This document shows, piece after piece, positions 1,661 through 38,393 of a stretch of DNA of 38,393 nucleotides. Origin of the DNA: a virus. The DNA lies in the IMG/VR virus record IMGVR_UViG_3300009034_001422, positions 1 to 38,393 of that record. One strand, written 5' to 3'. The position numbers and the translations under genes were made by a program. How positions within the stretch are numbered: position 1 is the stretch's first letter; every line of letters begins with the position of its first letter. The notes under the pieces were generated by a model. It saw nothing but the letters and a program-made list of their open reading frames with translations. It did no database searches and was not told the origin of the DNA.

Positions 1661-1755
1661 GGTCGGGTTAGGCATGGCCAGGTAGGGTGCGGTGAGGTGG
1701 GGTGTGCTCCGGAGAGGCTAGGTGAGGTCGGCTGTGGCAAGGCAAGGTTTGGTTT
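1661..1755 (+). repeat. GGYNN pentamer array, block 1 (19 units)
   Basis: Nineteen consecutive 5-nt units in perfect register. Sixteen begin GG[T/C]; the exceptions are GCTCC, GGAGA and GCTGT. The last two bases of each unit vary widely (CG, TA, AT, CA, AG, GC, GA, GG). The block ends GGTTT GGTTT then T. The fixed GG every five bases fits the G2N3 spacing of two-tetrad G-quadruplexes. It is not a simple microsatellite because units differ while phase is held. Confidence 0.9.
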
Positions 1756-1756
1756 T

Positions 1757-1797
1757 AAGATAAAAATGCGAAAACGCAAAGGTATAAACTTCAATGA
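1757..1797 (+). repeat. AT-rich inter-array spacer, copy 1
   Basis: A 41-nt AT-rich spacer following array block 1. It matches the spacer at 1899-1939 at 36 of 41 positions; both open with AAGATAAAAATGCGAAAA and contain GGTATAAA and TTCAAT. A weaker relative of the opening (AATAAAAATAACGAAA) lies just before block 1, near 1644-1660. The region is therefore built of repeating spacer-plus-array modules. Confidence 0.85.
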
Positions 1798-1806
1798 CGC
1801 AAACTT

Positions 1807-1891
1807 GGTTTCGCGAGGCTTGGCGAGGCTGGGTAAGGTACGGCGGGCTACGGTGAGTTTTGCTTTGGTAAGGCATGGCGAGCTAAGGTTT
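1807..1891 (+). repeat. GGYNN pentamer array, block 2 (17 units, more degenerate)
   Basis: Seventeen units in 5-nt register starting GGTTT CGCGA GGCTT GGCGA and ending GGCGA GCTAA GGTTT. About five units have lost one or both of the leading Gs (CGCGA, GCTAC, GTTTT, GCTTT, GCTAA), so this block looks the most decayed. Like the others it ends in GGTTT and a T-rich run. Confidence 0.85.
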
Positions 1892-1898
1892 ATTTTCT

Positions 1899-1939
1899 AA
1901 GATAAAAATGCGAAAAAACAACGGTATAAAATTCAATAA
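1899..1939 (+). repeat. AT-rich inter-array spacer, copy 2
   Basis: The second 41-nt spacer, between blocks 2 and 3, starting 142 bases after the first copy. Its five differences from copy 1 are all point substitutions, with no length change. A conserved, fixed-length spacer argues that it is a functional part of the module rather than filler. Confidence 0.85.
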
Positions 1940-1944
1940 AGTTT

Positions 1945-2049
1945 GGCAAGGCGTGGTCCGGTCAGGTCCGGCAGGGCGAGGTCAGGTTGGGCGCGGCCGG
2001 GTTTGGTCAGGCGAGGTCCGGCAAGGCGAGCTAAGGTAAGGTTTGGTTT
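1945..2049 (+). repeat. GGYNN pentamer array, block 3 (21 units)
   Basis: Twenty-one consecutive units, twenty starting GG[T/C] and one GC (GCTAA). The trailing dinucleotides are highly variable (AA, GT, CC, CA, AG, GA, TG, GC, CG). It ends GGTAA GGTTT GGTTT plus a T run, directly before the ribosome site of the gene at 2073. This is the cleanest of the three blocks and lies closest to that gene. Confidence 0.92.
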
Positions 2050-2072: not shown

Positions 2073-2615
2073 ATGGCAACTAAAACAGTCAAAGTAATGA
2101 TTAAACAAAAGTCAGGAATACTCATGCATAAATTCCCGTTAGTTGCAATTGAAGCGTTCGAGAAAAAAACACCTGCTGAACAAGCGGAATTAGTGGCATA
2201 TCGTGACGACGAAACAGGCCAATTATATATTCCCGGGGTTTGTGTACAGCGTGCTCTAATAAATGGAGCGGTATATAGCAAAGGTAAGGGACGTGCTTCT
2301 CTACAAAAGATAGTTGCAGCGTGTTTATTAGTATCTCCCGAACACATACTTCTGGGGACTAAAGACTATCAGATAGATTCCAGGGCAGTTGTGGTACCTG
2401 CAACCAAAGGCAGAATTCTACGATATAGACCTCGCATTGATAAATGGGAATGCAGCTTCGAAATAGAATATGAGGATACTTTGCTAACAGAAGAACAAGT
2501 AAGAAAGATTGTTGATGATACAGGACAAAGAGTTGGCCTATTAGATTTCAGGCCTGAACGCAAAGGTCCATACGGGCGATTTATGGTAACTCGGTGGTCA
2601 ACAAAAAAATCATGA
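2073..2615 (+). CDS. Conserved phage protein of unknown function, adjacent to the pentamer arrays
   Basis: A 180-aa protein preceded by AAAGGAAG. It starts with a short strand-like stretch and a GILMHK segment, has YIPGVCVQRALINGA near residues 48-65, and ends with GLLDFRPERKGPYGRFMV near residues 157-175. I recall the combination of an N-terminal L-M-H, a P-G-x-x-(L/I)-x-x-(A/M) helix and a C-terminal G-x-x-D-F-R-P...(Y/F)-G-R-F as a widespread uncharacterised phage family with a RAMP-like look; this is memory, not a search. Its base composition is lower in GC than its neighbours. Its stop overlaps the ATG of the recombinase at 2612 (ATGA), so the two are coupled. A DNA-annealing or repeat-binding role is a hypothesis based on position only. 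Confidence 0.82.
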   Translation: MATKTVKVMIKQKSGILMHKFPLVAIEAFEKKTPAEQAELVAYRDDETGQLYIPGVCVQRALINGAVYSKGKGRASLQKIVAACLLVSPEHILLGTKDYQIDSRAVVVPATKGRILRYRPRIDKWECSFEIEYEDTLLTEEQVRKIVDDTGQRVGLLDFRPERKGPYGRFMVTRWSTKKS

Positions 2616-3235
2616 GCAAAAGCAAGAAACATCGAGGTGGCTTAGCTCCGAATAAATATCTGACACAGGAGCAATGGGACCAGCTCAAGCAATATCTGCA
2701 GCGCCAGTACAAAGCAGCGCCGACACGCCTGGCAAGAAAGCGTGCGGAGACCAATAGAATGATTATCGACCTACTGGCCAACACCGGCCTTCGGGCCGGT
2801 GAGTTATGCAATCTACGATTGCGGGATTTGCCCTGCCATCACGGCAAACCGGTTATCAATATTCGCGATGGCAAGGGTCAGGTCGAGCGGTCGGTTGAAA
2901 TCTCCACAGCCTTTGCAGACCGGCTGCAGCAATTTATCAAGCGGCACCGGCCCGCAGCCAAACCGAGGAACCCATTATTTCTAAATGAGAACAGAAGGCC
3001 TCTGAGCTATAAGAGTTTATATAGCAAGCTCAAGATCATCGGCAAGGCTGCCGACCTGGGCAATCTGCATCCGCACATGCTGCGCCACACGTTCGCCACG
3101 TTGTTCTATACGGACAATAAGAATTTACTTTTACTGCAGGACCAGCTCGGGCACAGCAAGCCGGAAATCACCGCAATTTATGCCAGGACTGCGAACCCCG
3201 AACGCCGGCGATGCGTGGAGGCTTTCGACCTTTGA
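2612..3235 (+). CDS. Minimal tyrosine recombinase (catalytic domain only)
   Basis: A 207-aa XerC/D-like recombinase. All catalytic residues are visible: R61 in TGLRAGEL, K88 in RDGKG, H155-x-x-R158 in HMLRHT, H181 in LGHSK and nucleophile Y190 in AIYAR. The usual N-terminal core-binding (SAM-like) domain is missing; the catalytic domain begins almost at once. I chose the ATG at 2612, which overlaps the upstream TGA, over the in-frame GTG at 2594. The phage has a separate full-length integrase beside attP, so this enzyme probably does another job such as resolving multimers, inverting a segment or acting on the nearby repeats. Confidence 0.9.
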   Translation: MSKSKKHRGGLAPNKYLTQEQWDQLKQYLQRQYKAAPTRLARKRAETNRMIIDLLANTGLRAGELCNLRLRDLPCHHGKPVINIRDGKGQVERSVEISTAFADRLQQFIKRHRPAAKPRNPLFLNENRRPLSYKSLYSKLKIIGKAADLGNLHPHMLRHTFATLFYTDNKNLLLLQDQLGHSKPEITAIYARTANPERRRCVEAFDL

Positions 3236-4634: not shown

Positions 4635-5016
4635 TGTGAAACAACCCTGGGCATCGCTGATTGCACAGGGGACAAAAACGATAGAGACGCGGCTGTGGCA
4701 GACCCCGTATCGCGGGGACTTGCTTATCGTTTCGACAATGCAGCCAAATATTGAGGGCTTTCCGACCGGCCAGGCACTTTGCATCGTCGATTTATATCAC
4801 TGCCGGCCAATGACGGTCGACGACCAGCAGCGGGCGCAATGCGAATTGTACGATGGCGCTTGGGCGTGGGAATTAAGAAACCGTCGACCAGTTGTGCCGG
4901 TTGTTATTCGCGGACGGCAGCGCATCTACGATATTGACAGCACCGAGATCGAAGCGGATTGCGAGAATTGTAACGGCTGCCAGGCCGGCTGCAATATAGA
5001 CGGCTTATGTTTTTGA
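4621..5016 (+). CDS. ASCH-domain protein with C-terminal cysteine cluster
   Basis: A 131-aa protein beginning with the ASCH hallmark: ISVKQPWASLIAQGTKTIETR (residues 4-24) matches the K-Q-P-W-A-x-L-I...G-x-K-x-I-E-x-R pattern. ASCH folds are PUA-like RNA-binding beta barrels; some act as RNA cofactors and some as N4-acetylcytidine hydrolases. The final 25 residues hold five cysteines (CENCNGCQAGC and a later C), an addition that looks metal-binding. The start overlaps the preceding gene. The ligand is unknown; nucleic acid or modified nucleosides are the likely targets from family knowledge. Confidence 0.82.
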   Translation: MRAISVKQPWASLIAQGTKTIETRLWQTPYRGDLLIVSTMQPNIEGFPTGQALCIVDLYHCRPMTVDDQQRAQCELYDGAWAWELRNRRPVVPVVIRGRQRIYDIDSTEIEADCENCNGCQAGCNIDGLCF

Positions 5017-5065: not shown

Positions 5066-5608
5066 ATGCTAACAAAAGAAATGCTCGATGATGAATGGGA
5101 AGTTGCAATCAAATATGGAGCTATTTATGCGGTAACACAAGGGAATTACTATTGCCCATCAGCTTATAAAAAGAACGGAACGTTGAAAAAAAATGCAGAA
5201 CGTGCGCATAGAGTTTTATTTCGGGTGCTCCCGAATCCACCATTATCAACATCAGAAGAAGCAATTGACCGAGCAAACCAAATTTGCTTACATCACAATC
5301 TGTTGGTCAACCATGACAATCCTAAAAGGCAGAAAGAAATCATCACGGAAGTTATCGAATCGACAATGAGTAAGATTTTCGGCTATGACATTTCATTTGG
5401 AAATGCAAAGAGAATGAGACCATTGCCACACTCTAAACTTTGTTTAAGTAACCGAGCGAGAAAAGCATTGTTACTTCTGGATATTGAAACAATACATGAA
5501 TTGAAATCATTAGATTTACGACGATTGCGAGCACTAAAGAACTGTGGCGAAACTACTGTGCGTGAACTTAAAAGGAAACAGGATGATGTTATTGAAAATA
5601 ATCTGTGA
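5066..5608 (+). CDS. Protein with RNA polymerase alpha-CTD-like C terminus
   Basis: A 180-aa protein. The last 55 residues (about 125-172) read LCLSNRARKALLLLDIETIHEL...LRRLRALKNCGETTVRELKRK. This follows the alpha-CTD/helix-hairpin-helix pattern L-S-x-R-x-x-x-x-L...I-x-T-x-x-E-L...L...K-N-x-G-x-x-T-x-x-E-(I/L). In RNA polymerase this domain contacts UP elements and activators. The N-terminal 120 residues are not recognised. Base composition is clearly more AT-rich than the neighbours, and inverted repeats flank the gene, so it may have been acquired as a unit. A role in redirecting host transcription is inference; a generic DNA-binding HhH protein is the alternative. Confidence 0.68.
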   Translation: MLTKEMLDDEWEVAIKYGAIYAVTQGNYYCPSAYKKNGTLKKNAERAHRVLFRVLPNPPLSTSEEAIDRANQICLHHNLLVNHDNPKRQKEIITEVIESTMSKIFGYDISFGNAKRMRPLPHSKLCLSNRARKALLLLDIETIHELKSLDLRRLRALKNCGETTVRELKRKQDDVIENNL

Positions 5609-5619
5609 AATCTGCGGTT
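5600..5619. repeat. Flanking inverted repeat, right
   Basis: AATCTGTGAAATCTGCGGTT is the near reverse complement of 5031-5050, with three mismatches. It overlaps the stop codon of the alpha-CTD-like gene (TGA 5606-5608). A related fragment (AATCCGTGGAATCTGCG, about 15734-15750) occurs just past another gene's stop. Confidence 0.72.
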
Positions 5620-5641
5620 CAGAGACGAAAGGAATCTAAAA

Positions 5642-5836
5642 ATGGCAAAGGAAAAGATCACAGTAGAAACGACGTTAAAGAGCTGCAATATCAGCTCAAA
5701 GGGACAGACCATTGGATTGCCAAAAGTAAAATTGTCCCAGGCAAAGCAGGATAAGGTCATTAAGTGGGTGGAAGAAAAAAGAGCTATCAAGATCACCTTC
5801 GAGCTGGTGCAAGAGAATCTGCCGGGAATTGATTAG
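5642..5836 (+). CDS. Small hypothetical protein
   Basis: A 64-aa lysine-rich protein with AAAGGA just upstream. Sequence reads as a strand-rich start (ITVETTLKSCNIS...QTIGLPKVKL) and a short helix, then a strand (AIKITFELVQ). No family recognised. It is followed by a short G-rich direct duplication, GTCGTCAGGGGTCAGTCGTC, before the next gene. Confidence 0.55.
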   Translation: MAKEKITVETTLKSCNISSKGQTIGLPKVKLSQAKQDKVIKWVEEKRAIKITFELVQENLPGID

Positions 5837-7979: not shown

Positions 7980-8873
7980 ATGAAAGTAGGCCTTATTGAT
8001 ATTGAGCACAACATTTTTAATACCGCTTATATGCAGATCGCGGCTTATCACCGAGGCCGCGGTGATACCGTTGAGTGCTGGACGCCGCTAACCGACCGGC
8101 AGTTCGACCATGTCTACTGCAGTAGCATTTTTGATTACACGGATAAGACCGAGGTACCGGCCAGGGCGATATGCGGGGGTACGGGCTTTGATGTTACGAG
8201 CCGATTGTCTCAAGTCATAGAGAATTCCGATCTGGACTACTCTATCTATCCAAAATGTGACCGCTCATTTGTGTGGTTTAGCAGGGGCTGTATCAGGGAT
8301 TGCCCGTGGTGCATTGTTCGGCAAAAGGAAGGCTATATACATTCGGTTAAGGCGAAGAAATTGAATCCATCTGGTAAATATATTGTGGTCCAGGACAATA
8401 ACTTTTTTGCTAATCCGGAATGGGAAAAGGCAATCAAACAATTACAAAAATGGGGACAGCCTGTTGACTTTCAGGGGATAGATGCTCGGACGTTGAGTAT
8501 TTATCGGTGTGAGCAATTACTTACCATCCGACATTACAAAAGAATAAAAATCGCGTGGGATGACCCACATGAGGACCTGGAGCCAAAGCTGCGCACCATA
8601 ATCCGATACATCAAGCCATGGCGCTTGATGTGTTATGTTCTTATCGGGTACTGGCATGGCGAGGAAGAGCTGGATTTGCATAGAGTAGAAACACTCCGGA
8701 ATTTAGGAATAGACCCATTTGTCATGCCTTACGTTAGAAGCGATTTCTACCAGAGGGCATTTGCCAGATGGGTGAATCATAAGGCGATATTTAAGAAGAT
8801 TCCCTGGCAGGATTACCGATACCGAGTAGAAAAATCCGAGGCCGCTGGCCACGGCTGGAAGGAGCCGAAATGA
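7980..8873 (+). CDS. Radical SAM enzyme with B12-binding-like N-terminal region
   Basis: A 297-aa protein with GAGGA five bases before the ATG. Residues 1-90 (MKVGLIDIEHNIFNTAYMQI...HVYCSSIF) look like a reduced, cobalamin-binding-like Rossmann domain without the DxHxxG cobalamin motif. The radical SAM cluster CIRDCPWC gives C104, C108 and C111. A GIDARTL segment and a MCYVLIGY strand follow, as in MiaB/BchE-like barrels. The substrate is unknown. The TGA overlaps the next ATG, and the following genes are a ParB-like and a methyltransferase-like protein, so nucleic-acid modification is the best guess from context. Confidence 0.82.
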   Translation: MKVGLIDIEHNIFNTAYMQIAAYHRGRGDTVECWTPLTDRQFDHVYCSSIFDYTDKTEVPARAICGGTGFDVTSRLSQVIENSDLDYSIYPKCDRSFVWFSRGCIRDCPWCIVRQKEGYIHSVKAKKLNPSGKYIVVQDNNFFANPEWEKAIKQLQKWGQPVDFQGIDARTLSIYRCEQLLTIRHYKRIKIAWDDPHEDLEPKLRTIIRYIKPWRLMCYVLIGYWHGEEELDLHRVETLRNLGIDPFVMPYVRSDFYQRAFARWVNHKAIFKKIPWQDYRYRVEKSEAAGHGWKEPK

Positions 8874-9102: not shown

Positions 9103-9651
9103 ATGTTCAAGCTAAGTGAGCTCAAAGCATCATCTTACAATCCGCGGACGATTTCAGCTTCGGCCCTGGCTGGTCTTACTGCCAGTATAAAAAAGTTCGG
9201 CTGTGTCGAACCGATCATCGTAAATATCCGCGGCAAGAAAAATGCCGTGGTCGGTGGCCATCAACGGCTTCGAATCCTAAAGCAACTTAAGAGACCGGAC
9301 TATCGATGCGCTTGTGTTACTGTGGACCTGGCAGCAGCCGATGAAAAATTATTGAATCTTACACTGAATAATCCCAAAGCCCAGGGCATCTTTATAGATT
9401 CACTGGATGAACATATCGACCAGCTCCGCGAGGAATTGGGCAACGAAACCAATATTATGGAGCTCCAGGTAACCGAGTTGCGCAAAGAAGTAAGCGACAC
9501 CGGCATAATCTATCGCGAGGAAAAAATAGAACCATTCACAAAGACGCACGTGTTGCTATCCTTTGCGCCAGCCTTACTACCGCAGATTGCGGATTTTTTG
9601 GAAGCGATTATTCGGGTCCCAGGGGTGGAATATGAACAGTCCTCAAATTGA
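9103..9651 (+). CDS. Short ParB/sulfiredoxin-fold protein
   Basis: A 182-aa protein. Residues 1-75 carry the ParB N-terminal domain: LKASSYNPRTIS (with the N-P-R motif at 13-15) and VVGGHQRLRIL (the G-x-x-R-x-x-x-L motif at 51-58). In chromosomal ParB this fold is a CTPase; phage relatives include nucleases and partners of DNA methyltransferases. There is no downstream HTH, unlike the long ParB-like protein at 37310. Residues 76-182 are unrecognised. It overlaps the next gene by 20 bases. Confidence 0.82.
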   Translation: MFKLSELKASSYNPRTISASALAGLTASIKKFGCVEPIIVNIRGKKNAVVGGHQRLRILKQLKRPDYRCACVTVDLAAADEKLLNLTLNNPKAQGIFIDSLDEHIDQLREELGNETNIMELQVTELRKEVSDTGIIYREEKIEPFTKTHVLLSFAPALLPQIADFLEAIIRVPGVEYEQSSN

Positions 9652-33992: not shown

Positions 33993-34036
33993 TCTGGCGG
34001 CTCGTAATTCAATATGCTTTGGAAAGGAGGCGTACT

Positions 34037-34993
34037 ATGGTGAAATTACAAACCTTAAGCGCGCACTATCTATCTGAATTCTTCTGGCTCAAGCAGCAGA
34101 CAAAAGATACGACCCAACGGGCGGTGCGTTATTTTGTCGGCTACTCGGGCAATCTGCAACTGGACCGATTATGCTTTCGGCACTTCGAAAAGTATAAGCA
34201 TTGGCTGGTAAAGTCCGGTCGGTCAAAGACAACAGCGAATATCTATCTAAGGTCGATAAAACGTCTGCTTAATTGGGCGGTGCAATCGGGTTTGATTGCA
34301 ACTAATCCGATGGATGACTTGCAGCAGTATAAAGTCACTCGCAAACCGATTCGCATATATGAGGATTGGGAAGTCCGCAGAATGGTCCGGTTCTGTTCGG
34401 ACAAGCGATGGAAAACTATTATCTTGATGGCCCGGGCGACTGGCTTACGGCGTAGCGCGATTCTCAATCTCACGATGAATAATATTCGGGCAGGCTATGT
34501 TTGGGTGGAGCCGAAACGCAACACTCCAAACACTTGGCTGTGGGAACCAAAAGACCGCGAGATCCGCCGAGTACCACTGCCCGGGACTCTGAGCAGTTTA
34601 TTGAAGTCGCTACCTACCTTTTACCCGATGCTTTCAGCGCGGACCTATGCTAACCTGCTCAGGCGAAAAAATATCTTTGGCAGTTTACCAGAACGTCTTA
34701 GCAATCTGCCTGAGCAAAATTTCCGCAGGACATTTATAAATATTCAAAGGAAAGCCTTTGGTAGACAGATAGGTGACTTTCACAGCCTTCGCAAAACGTA
34801 CACGACCATGATGTGCGGTGAGTTACCGGATTACTTTGTCGCAAGATTGACCGGCCATAACTCTTTAAAAACGATGACTTATTACTTAGCGAGCAGGGAG
34901 TCATACTACGATACAGCCCGTGATGCTGCAGCAAAAGCAATTAAGGGGTGCCTTGGCTCGCAATCCGTGCAAGAAAGAAGGCACCTTGCGTGA
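34037..34993 (+). CDS. int: Phage integrase (tyrosine recombinase)
   Basis: A 318-aa integrase. I chose ATG 34037, six bases after GGAAAGGAGG. Residues 1-95 form the SAM-like core-binding domain (LDRLCFRHFEKYKHWLVKSGRSKTTANIYLRSIKRLLNWAVQSG). Catalytic residues: R138 in TGLRRSAI, K near 172 in WEPKDREIRRVPL, H249-x-x-R252 in HSLRKT, H274 in TGHNS and Tyr 282 or 283 in MTYYLA. It would recombine attP, which begins ten bases after its stop codon, with a host tRNA-Val gene. Inverted repeats (GGTGCCTT 34947-34954 and AAGGCACC 34978-34985) lie in its 3' end. Confidence 0.93.
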   Translation: MVKLQTLSAHYLSEFFWLKQQTKDTTQRAVRYFVGYSGNLQLDRLCFRHFEKYKHWLVKSGRSKTTANIYLRSIKRLLNWAVQSGLIATNPMDDLQQYKVTRKPIRIYEDWEVRRMVRFCSDKRWKTIILMARATGLRRSAILNLTMNNIRAGYVWVEPKRNTPNTWLWEPKDREIRRVPLPGTLSSLLKSLPTFYPMLSARTYANLLRRKNIFGSLPERLSNLPEQNFRRTFINIQRKAFGRQIGDFHSLRKTYTTMMCGELPDYFVARLTGHNSLKTMTYYLASRESYYDTARDAAAKAIKGCLGSQSVQERRHLA

Positions 34994-35052: not shown

Positions 35053-35295
35053 CTGAAAACCTGCGAAATAAGTCACCTGTTTTAACAACTGGATTACGAG
35101 CCAGTTTCTATCTTCCAGGGATGCTCATTCATCTCACGCCGGCAGCGATCCCGATGTTAATTGGTCCATCGGGAGGGCAGGGATGCTCAGGCCGTGCAGA
35201 ATGTATTCTGTCTGCCGGCGGCAATCATAGCTTTTCATCACCCTCCTCCGAAGCCAGGTTCTCCGGACCAGGGCCTGGCTTTATTTTGAAAACAT
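35053..35295. other. Structured non-coding region between attP and tRNA
   Basis: About 240 bases with unusually many perfect inverted repeats: AACTGG/CCAGTT (35087-35106), TCCCGATG/CATCGGGA (35149-35174) and CAGAATGTATTCTG (35197-35210). A direct repeat CAGGGATGCTCA occurs at about 35117 and 35179. These could be integrase arm-binding sites or a structured RNA. The 65-codon frame at 35121 has no ribosome site. Confidence 0.5.
35252..35288 (+). terminator. Intrinsic terminator before the tRNA
   Basis: AGCCAGG (35252-35258) pairs with CCTGGCT (35274-35280) with a 15-base loop holding TCCGGA, followed by a T-rich TTATTTTG. It would end transcription coming from the integrase. Confidence 0.6.
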
Positions 35296-35378
35296 TGCGG
35301 GGTACTCAAGTGGACTAAGAGAAATGCCTCATAAGCATTTGCCGAAAGGCTTCACAGGTTCGAATCCTGTCCCCGCTA
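35296..35378 (+). tRNA. Class-II-shaped tRNA with CAT anticodon
   Basis: All arms fold by eye. Acceptor: six GC pairs (35297-35302 with 35371-35376) plus a U-U mismatch at 1-72. D stem CTC/GAG. Anticodon stem AATGC/GCATT with loop CTCATAA, anticodon 35330-35332. A 14-nt variable region has a GCC-GAAA-GGC stem. T arm ACAGG TTCGAAT CCTGT, discriminator A. No CCA is encoded. Long variable arms belong to Leu, Ser or Tyr tRNAs, yet CAT is Met or lysidine-modified Ile. The loop is identical to that of initiator and tRNA-Ile2. Charging is therefore unclear. Confidence 0.85.
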
Positions 35379-35428
35379 TTACAAGTAGAGTGACAACTAT
35401 AATCTATTTTTTGTTAAGGGATTAGAAA

Positions 35429-37309: not shown

Positions 37310-38393
37310 ATGAATGAGGAGACTAAAAACAAACAGGCGGGACGGCTTATCCAGGTAGCCGTCGGAGATGTAGTACCATCAGGGGATAATCCCAGGATTA
37401 TCTCAAAAACAAGTGCAAGCTTTTTGGAGCTGCTTGAAAGCGTCAAATCAAGTGGGGTGGTTGTGCCGGTCCACGTCCGGCAGCATCCAAAAAGGTCGGG
37501 CAAGTTTGAATTGATTGCCGGCGAACGGCGCTTACTGGCAGCGGCCCAGGCAGACCGTCCTACCTTGCCGGCAATCGATCACGGTAAGATTTCAGACCAA
37601 GAGGCGTTCGATATTACATTCATTGAGAATTTCTCGCGTCCGGACTTAACACCGCTCGAACAAGGTAAGGCGGTCGCGATTCTCCTTGGCAAATATAAGA
37701 ACGATATCGAGGCCGTCGCATCAAAGTTGGGCAAGCCGATTATGTGGGTGACACAGCGCCGGGCCCTGGGCACCAACCTGAGCACGAAATGGCAAAAGGC
37801 CATATCATTCAGCGATGGTGAAATGAGCACCTGGACAGTCGGGCATTTGCAGATTATTGCATCCCTACCGAAACCGGCCCAGCATGAAGCACTTGAATAT
37901 TTTGAGTATCACGCCGAGCGGCCCACGATAAAAGAATTGAATCAATACGTTGTGGACATTTTGCAGCAATTGAGCAAAGCGCCATTTGACAGGGACAAGG
38001 CCGGCTGCGGAAAATGCAACAAGCGGACCAGTTGTCAGCCTGGGCTTTTCGATACTACTTTGGACCCCACGGCATTAAAGAGAAACGACCGCTGCCTGGA
38101 CCGGCACTGTTGGGACAAGAATATCGTAGAATGGCTCAAGGTGGCATTCGAAACAAAAAGCAAAGAATTGCCGAACCTAATAGCAATTGCAACCGAGCCA
38201 ATGACCGTCAATGAACAGGCTATATTCGAAGGGGAGTGGCCCAATTTCTTATCATATTCTCAATACAACCAGGCAAAGAAAAAAGACAAGAGCGCTTTCC
38301 CAGGATTCATTATCCACGGCAAGGCCCGCGCTACAATATTATGGGTCAGGCCCCGTGGGTCCGCGGCACAGCAAACGAAACGCGGCACAGGGA
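37310..38393 (+). CDS. ParB-like protein, N-terminal part (continues at position 2)
   Basis: The first 361 codons of a protein of about 542 aa that runs through the join. The start is ATG 37310 with GAAAGGG upstream. The ParB N-terminal domain shows VAVGDVVPSGDNPRI (15-30), LIAGERRLLAA (68-78, the G-E-R-R CTP/DNA-binding box) and ENFSRPDLTPLEQGKAV (106-122). A helix-turn-helix follows (AVASKLGKPIMWVTQRRAL, about 135-153). Near residues 225-270 a CGKCNKRTSCQ...CLDRHCW cluster may bind zinc. No ParA partner is visible, so this is probably a DNA-binding regulator or modification partner rather than a partition protein. Confidence 0.9.
   Translation, partial: MNEETKNKQAGRLIQVAVGDVVPSGDNPRIISKTSASFLELLESVKSSGVVVPVHVRQHPKRSGKFELIAGERRLLAAAQADRPTLPAIDHGKISDQEAFDITFIENFSRPDLTPLEQGKAVAILLGKYKNDIEAVASKLGKPIMWVTQRRALGTNLSTKWQKAISFSDGEMSTWTVGHLQIIASLPKPAQHEALEYFEYHAERPTIKELNQYVVDILQQLSKAPFDRDKAGCGKCNKRTSCQPGLFDTTLDPTALKRNDRCLDRHCWDKNIVEWLKVAFETKSKELPNLIAIATEPMTVNEQAIFEGEWPNFLSYSQYNQAKKKDKSAFPGFIIHGKARATILWVRPRGSAAQQTKRGTG
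38377..38393. repeat. Terminal direct overlap, right copy
   Basis: Identical to positions 1-17. It supports a closed circular genome; reading continues in frame from codon 38378 into codon 2. Confidence 0.93.

Follow-up and report, generated by a model that had tools for sequence, protein, structure and literature searches.

The locus considered here raises the question of what is encoded by three runs of five-base units, in which the last two bases of each unit vary almost freely, that lie between two open reading frames of a viral genome and directly precede a small gene and a minimal tyrosine recombinase. The stretch analysed as a whole, hereafter the window, comprises 38,393 nucleotides (IMG/VR record IMGVR_UViG_3300009034_001422, positions 1 to 38,393), and its phage context is given by terminase, portal, head protease, major head protein and integrase genes. 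The three blocks are all on the plus strand, i.e., block 1 at 1661–1755 with 19 pentamers, the majority of them GGY; block 2 at 1807–1896 with 18 pentamers; and block 3 at 1945–2049 with 21 pentamers, where units 1–17 are strictly GGY. Summed over the blocks this gives 58 pentamers (57 had been counted in a first-pass annotation of this DNA), of which 49 start with GG and 48 with GGY, and all four bases occur in free variation at positions 4 and 5; the variable pairs of block 1 read CG TA AT CA AG GC GA GG GT CC GA TA GA CG GT AA AA TT TT. The earlier account of three phased blocks with a largely fixed GGY and two free bases was accurate, but block 2 is the most degenerate of the three (12 of its 18 units are GGY), and the strict 5-nt register that had been reported is kept inside each block and lost across the spacers. 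The blocks end in GGTTT and runs of Ts, as had been noticed, and 3′ of block 3 the T run is followed by the ribosome-binding site of the downstream gene.

Phased-GG scores of 15, 7 and 19 were obtained for blocks 1, 2 and 3. When the whole window was shuffled 100 times the highest score was 5, and 1000 shuffles of the region gave no more than 6; a chance origin of the array was ruled out by the block scores, which lie above every shuffle. The same scan detected no second comparable array elsewhere in the window and none on the minus strand. A microsatellite was ruled out by the diversity of the units; Tandem Repeats Finder detected block 3 alone, and weakly. A coding repeat was ruled out because units of 5 nt do not fit a whole number of codons and because the stretch is intergenic, between the ORFs at 1599 and 2073. 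Neither Cas families, among the genes scanned, nor CRISPR-type repeats, among the repeats searched, were found in the window, and the earlier view that the array is not a microsatellite, a CRISPR or a coding repeat was upheld. An Rfam scan of 1300–2200 returned no match, and therefore no recognised hammerhead lies between the blocks; at the array locus no promoters were predicted above chance, and terminators were likewise without clear excess.

The identity of the array became apparent through the neighbouring gene (2073–2615, plus strand), which encodes a protein of 180 aa for which no Pfam match was found. All 52 of the 52 family members were assigned to phrog_4652, a family of which the function is not known. 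A PDB search with a profile of 52 relatives gave a sole match, entry 36pp, the “SUSP1 Vipr protein” (E=5.1e-39), which was again the sole match when the window protein was used singly (E=1.9e-4). Among PDB folds, its AlphaFold model (pLDDT 94.6, pTM 0.89) is closest to RAMP subunits of the Csm3/Cas7 type from CRISPR complexes of types III and VII, with E-values down to 4e-8 and a TM-score of about 0.6; these matches of a predicted structure provide independent support for a RAMP fold, and the protein appears to contain the RRM core and the glycine-rich loop of a RAMP protein. In the family alignment G151, G155 and G168 are invariant and R160 nearly so, and the window ORF is intact and keeps the invariant residues. 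No sequence or fold match to the annealing families RecT, Erf or Red-beta was detected, and the remark in the first-pass annotation that similar tracts lie near annealing-protein genes in other phages gave way to a RAMP assignment by sequence and fold.

Vipr is one component of VIPR (Viral Interference Programmable Repeat), described in a preprint of April 2026 as a system that is guided by RNA, has a relationship to CRISPR proteins and is employed by phages against their rivals among other phages (PMC13142463). It combines Vipr, a RAMP protein encoded by the phage, with guide RNAs (vrRNAs) in which a series of YNNGG repeats, hypervariable at NN, precedes a conserved, structured 3′ tail; the NN positions of the guide base-pair with double-stranded DNA, one base being skipped each time, and transcription is repressed by the complex (PMC13142463). 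The biochemistry was carried out on two systems, SUSP1 and P. fulva, and seven types have been published, the SUSP1 clade being type II; the carriers are mainly phages and proviruses, 9–16 repeats per vrRNA were reported for two clades, and an accessory gene, vap, of which six families have been published, is typical of VIPR but not universal (PMC13142463). Because the protein, its fold, the array and the phage context of the window all agree with this description, the blocks were taken as three vrRNA genes and 2073–2615 as vipr, and the array and the gene together very probably constitute a phage-borne VIPR system (a probability of about 0.93), whose blocks would be the vrRNAs that guide Vipr to the DNA of rivals. 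The anatomy of the locus, the protein family, the fold and the co-occurrence described next are what the present analysis itself shows.

The co-occurrence of arrays of at least ten GG[CT]NN units with homologues of the 2073 protein, put forward in the first-pass annotation, was strongly positive in both directions. A search of IMG/VR for runs of ten GGYNN units, in which the DNA pattern was the sole criterion and the encoded proteins played no part, yielded at least 120 loci. When the array-adjacent proteins of 120 loci among the matches listed were clustered, the family of the 2073 protein formed by far the largest cluster, and a profile search found Vipr encoded in 86 of these 120 listed array loci, and on the array strand in each of the 86. 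In contrast, Vipr was present in none of 113 control loci, which total about 1 Mb and had been retrieved with decoded-target patterns (SUSP1, which falls in the same id range, was excluded); a single one of them had a GGY run of at least nine units. Among the 34 of 120 listed array loci that lack Vipr, four (L094, L101, L108 and L109) are plain microsatellites and several are short contigs.

For the reverse direction, 28 viral loci were fetched by the Vipr protein with a two-sequence alignment as the query; the window Vipr, used as a single query in an IMG/VR protein search, had recovered no relatives. GGY blocks were located within 2 kb of vipr in 23 of the 28, all on the vipr strand, with none elsewhere or on the opposite strand in those 23 loci. 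Four of the remaining five carry variant phased arrays, i.e., AGYNN in L272 (5503–5857, about 70 units) and L273 (5559–5698), TGYNN in L260 (2–76) and mixed units in L270, and the fifth, L264, has a weak phased GC run alone. Clear GGY blocks lie beside the homologue in the annotated phages LESphi2, Medea1, Trine and MakoManhole, and weaker ones in prophiBWHA-1; phiHSIC (L131) has a GCA-type array at about 5454–5714, and the layout of the SUSP1 locus is the same as that of the window.

The variant units also bear on a quite different explanation, according to which the array is a DNA site for replication or recombination, forming G-quadruplexes or annealing as a single strand, on which the 2073 protein would act as an annealing or filament protein and the recombinase as the processing enzyme. 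The occurrence of GG every five bases, and a recombinase gene that overlaps the 3′ end of the 2073 gene, would fit such a site. It is nevertheless hardly credible, given a 2073 protein that is a RAMP by sequence and fold without a match to annealing families, arrays that follow the coding strand of vipr in 86 of 86 loci among the matches listed, and relatives in which the same arrangement is built of AGYNN, TGYNN or GCA-type units, i.e., without a regular GG; nor does a recombinase adjoin vipr in any other locus examined. Since these variant arrays occupy the same place, the two-tetrad G-quadruplexes that had been suggested are not the principle shared by the family. The recombinase itself (2612–3235, plus strand, 207 aa) comprises the catalytic domain only, with no recognisable core-binding domain, and the coupling of the two genes that had been proposed was confirmed, as it overlaps the vipr stop codon (ATGA). 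No recombinase was found beside vipr in the nearest relatives, L249–L259, or in the 86 Vipr array loci listed, and because it is not adjacent to vipr in the other loci examined it was not counted in the VIPR system, outside which it probably lies. What remains of the earlier idea of a repeat-protein-recombinase cassette is that the array belongs with the 2073 gene, as the co-occurrence indicates, but the recombinase is not a recurrent partner. That it might be a true accessory of this VIPR, serving RNA-guided DNA rearrangement, is suggested by the ATGA overlap and by the bare catalytic domain, but with its absence from the same comparison loci this is very improbable. A similarly slight chance is given to a stand-alone VIPR lineage without an accessory protein, in which the recombinase was recruited at this locus and a vrRNA-guided Vipr would direct recombination to chosen sites. 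A second tyrosine integrase, full-length, lies at 34019–34993, and the phage therefore has two tyrosine recombinases; a tRNA-Met follows at 35295–35379.

Within the VIPR reading, the published mechanism would be expected to hold for the window locus by analogy. Transcription of the plus strand across the three blocks would produce three vrRNAs, along which copies of Vipr would line up, presumably one per pentamer, with the fixed GGY held by each copy and the two variable bases left exposed. The ribonucleoprotein formed in this way would recognise double-stranded DNA in which the successive NN pairs of the guide are matched and a single base between them is left unread (NNxNNx...), and once bound it would block transcription of its target; the target gene most likely belongs to a competing phage or a satellite, a rival phage being the presumed opponent. 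In this scheme the transcription step, the binding of the guide, the one-base skip and the repression are carried over from the other family members studied in the preprint. The 5-nt-pitch protein filament imagined in the first-pass annotation comes close to the published mechanism of the Vipr family, but where that annotation had single-stranded DNA inside the filament, the strand is most likely an RNA to which a RAMP protein binds.

The element that separates the blocks is a possible counterpart of the vrRNA tail. Copy 1 (1756–1795) and copy 2 (1898–1937), both on the plus strand, are identical at 36 of 40 positions without gaps, which was equalled in 0 of 300 shuffles; conservation between the blocks, stated earlier as 36 of 41 positions of a 41-nt spacer, was thus borne out over a length measured here as 40 nt. 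Copy 1, a candidate vrRNA 3′ tail or processing element, contains a TGCG-AAAA-CGCA hairpin that is lost in copy 2, and its fold is weakly structured, no stronger than that of shuffles (z -0.35). The element follows blocks 1 and 2, and no further copy was found 5′ of block 1 or 3′ of block 3. Conserved elements between blocks are also present in L001, L002, L005 and L055, where, as in the window, no obvious element follows the last block; the element of L002 is strongly structured (z -4.5), unlike the window spacer. In SUSP1 and LESphi2 a tail-like element is located 3′ of every block. The 40-nt spacer of the window may be a 3′ tail, a 5′ leader or a processing site. In the Gordonia phage Trine (L132:5411–5686) the array spacer is a 46-nt repeat in three copies, which resembles the T arm and acceptor 3′ half of a tRNA (GGGGTTCGACTCCCCGGGGGAGCA).

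In a tree of 80 Vipr proteins the window protein pairs with that of L249 (support 99/94), and both sit in a 12-member clade (98/99) that is separate from the group of SUSP1, LESphi2 and Medea1 (100/94). The window locus and the SUSP1 clade (type II) have in common a protein of the Vipr family, with the solved relative 36pp, and intergenic GGY/NN blocks on the vipr strand, several per locus and phage-borne. The window differs from that clade, besides the separate and supported position of its Vipr, in that its blocks all lie upstream of vipr, no vap was found, and the spacer is weakly structured and missing after the last block. Its blocks are up to 21 units long, i.e., 19, 18 and 21 units versus the published 9–16, and fewer when strict GGY units alone are counted. 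An accessory-like family, phrog_15946, occurs in at least 23 array loci, always with Vipr, and is not among the scanned window genes downstream of vipr. No accessory gene recurs within 3.5 kb of vipr in the window clade and its neighbours, where the most widespread other gene encodes a terminase-like large subunit (8 loci) and the next is found in 4 loci; the window clade, with no conserved accessory gene, is a candidate for a minimal, single-protein form of VIPR. Class 1 CRISPR-Cas systems, in which a Cas7/Csm3 backbone forms on the crRNA, share with the window the RAMP fold and, according to the preprint (PMC13142463), an RNA-guided filament with periodic unpaired positions. In the window, however, no Cas genes were found among the genes scanned and no CRISPR repeats or spacers, and its guide information would reside in NN pairs, one per five bases, and not in a contiguous spacer.

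Under the one-base skip, the guides would read CGxTAxATxCAxAGxGCxGAxGGxGTxCCxGAxTAxGAxCGxGT... for block 1, TTxGAxTTxGAxTGxAAxACxGGxACxGAx... for block 2 and AAxGTxCCxCAxCCxAGxGAxCAxTGxGCxCGxTTxCAxGAxCCx... for block 3. Exact scans of IMG/VR (7–8 units) and one scan of the GTDB genomes (10 units) gave chance-level matches alone, which extend past the searched stretch no more than expected by chance; full-length scoring of the window guides on the fetched loci reached 26/38 at best, also chance level, and no target of block 3 with up to three mismatches was found in 24 whole viral records. These blank searches, together with the 6 of 18 units of block 2 that are off the GGY consensus, are what could be expected of a decayed or inactive VIPR remnant, in which the protein is kept and the guides have no current match. 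Such decay is unlikely in view of the intact vipr ORF with its family-invariant residues and of the 17 consecutive strict GGY units of block 3, and the target databases may hold little from the host of this phage.

An all-against-all comparison with skip rules 0–3 gave an excess for skip-1, which came mostly from loci picked by skip-1 patterns. When 10 units of a guide in L088 (minus strand, about 2380–2429 of the reversed locus) were compared with a portal-like gene of L058, 19 of the 20 positions agreed, in antisense orientation and with the skipped base at wobble positions. As a natural VIPR target this match is suggestive, on the sequences compared, and is not proof, because about 0.1 matches of this quality would be expected by chance over the guides tried (our own estimate). 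In the pair L252 and L253, with 86–88% DNA identity around the locus, units 1–9 of the arrays have the same NN, the pyrimidine differs in 2 of 9, and the arrays diverge beyond; the blocks of other close pairs also share units in part. This partial sharing, in a small sample, fits a role of NN as the carrier of information and a replacement of guides.

One relative carries a different kind of array next to vipr. In L259 (IMGVR_UViG_3300010330_000010) a mini-CRISPR array is located directly upstream of vipr at 4755–4966, where its relative L258 (about 92% DNA identity in flanking stretches) has GGY blocks. The array is type I-E-like, with four 29-nt repeats at an exact 61-nt period and three 32-nt spacers. 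All 32 positions of the third spacer agree with a protospacer in vipr of L258 (L258:5007–5038) that is flanked by AAG, and 31 of the 32 agree with the vipr of L259 itself, where the first protospacer base differs. For the other two spacers no other match was found among 20 related records when up to three mismatches were allowed, and a search of IMG/VR with the core of spacer 1 gave no other match. No Cse1 gene was found in the L259 or L258 record, and the array would therefore need Cas proteins supplied from outside, presumably by the host. Virus-borne mini-arrays are reportedly used in conflicts between viruses and have been proposed to depend on host Cas. They resemble the window array as small virus-carried guide arrays in inter-virus conflict, but are distinguished by true CRISPR repeats and Cas dependence, neither of which is seen in the window. 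The L259 case suggests, as far as its sequence can tell, that virus-borne CRISPR may be used against rival VIPR systems.

Several other genes of the window were recorded. A second 180-aa protein (5066–5608), the C-terminal part of which resembles the RNA polymerase alpha C-terminal domain (E 3.6e-6), is a possible modulator of the host RNA polymerase. Two radical SAM proteins are encoded at 559–1338 and 7980–8873, one of which also resembles, more weakly, a photolyase-like repair family, and two proteins with a ParB N-terminal domain at 9103–9651 and 37310–38392.

Taken at the level of its sequence, the window locus appears to be a real, functional-looking RNA-guided system of the kind published in 2026, and not a new category. 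The link between the array and Vipr was reproduced independently and in both directions on metagenomic phages. The VIPR class is striking and has already been reported; the additions made here are the variant triplets, a divergent clade in which no accessory gene is conserved, and a case in which CRISPR may be directed against VIPR. The variant fixed triplets (AGY, TGY and GCA) could show which residues of Vipr read the triplet.
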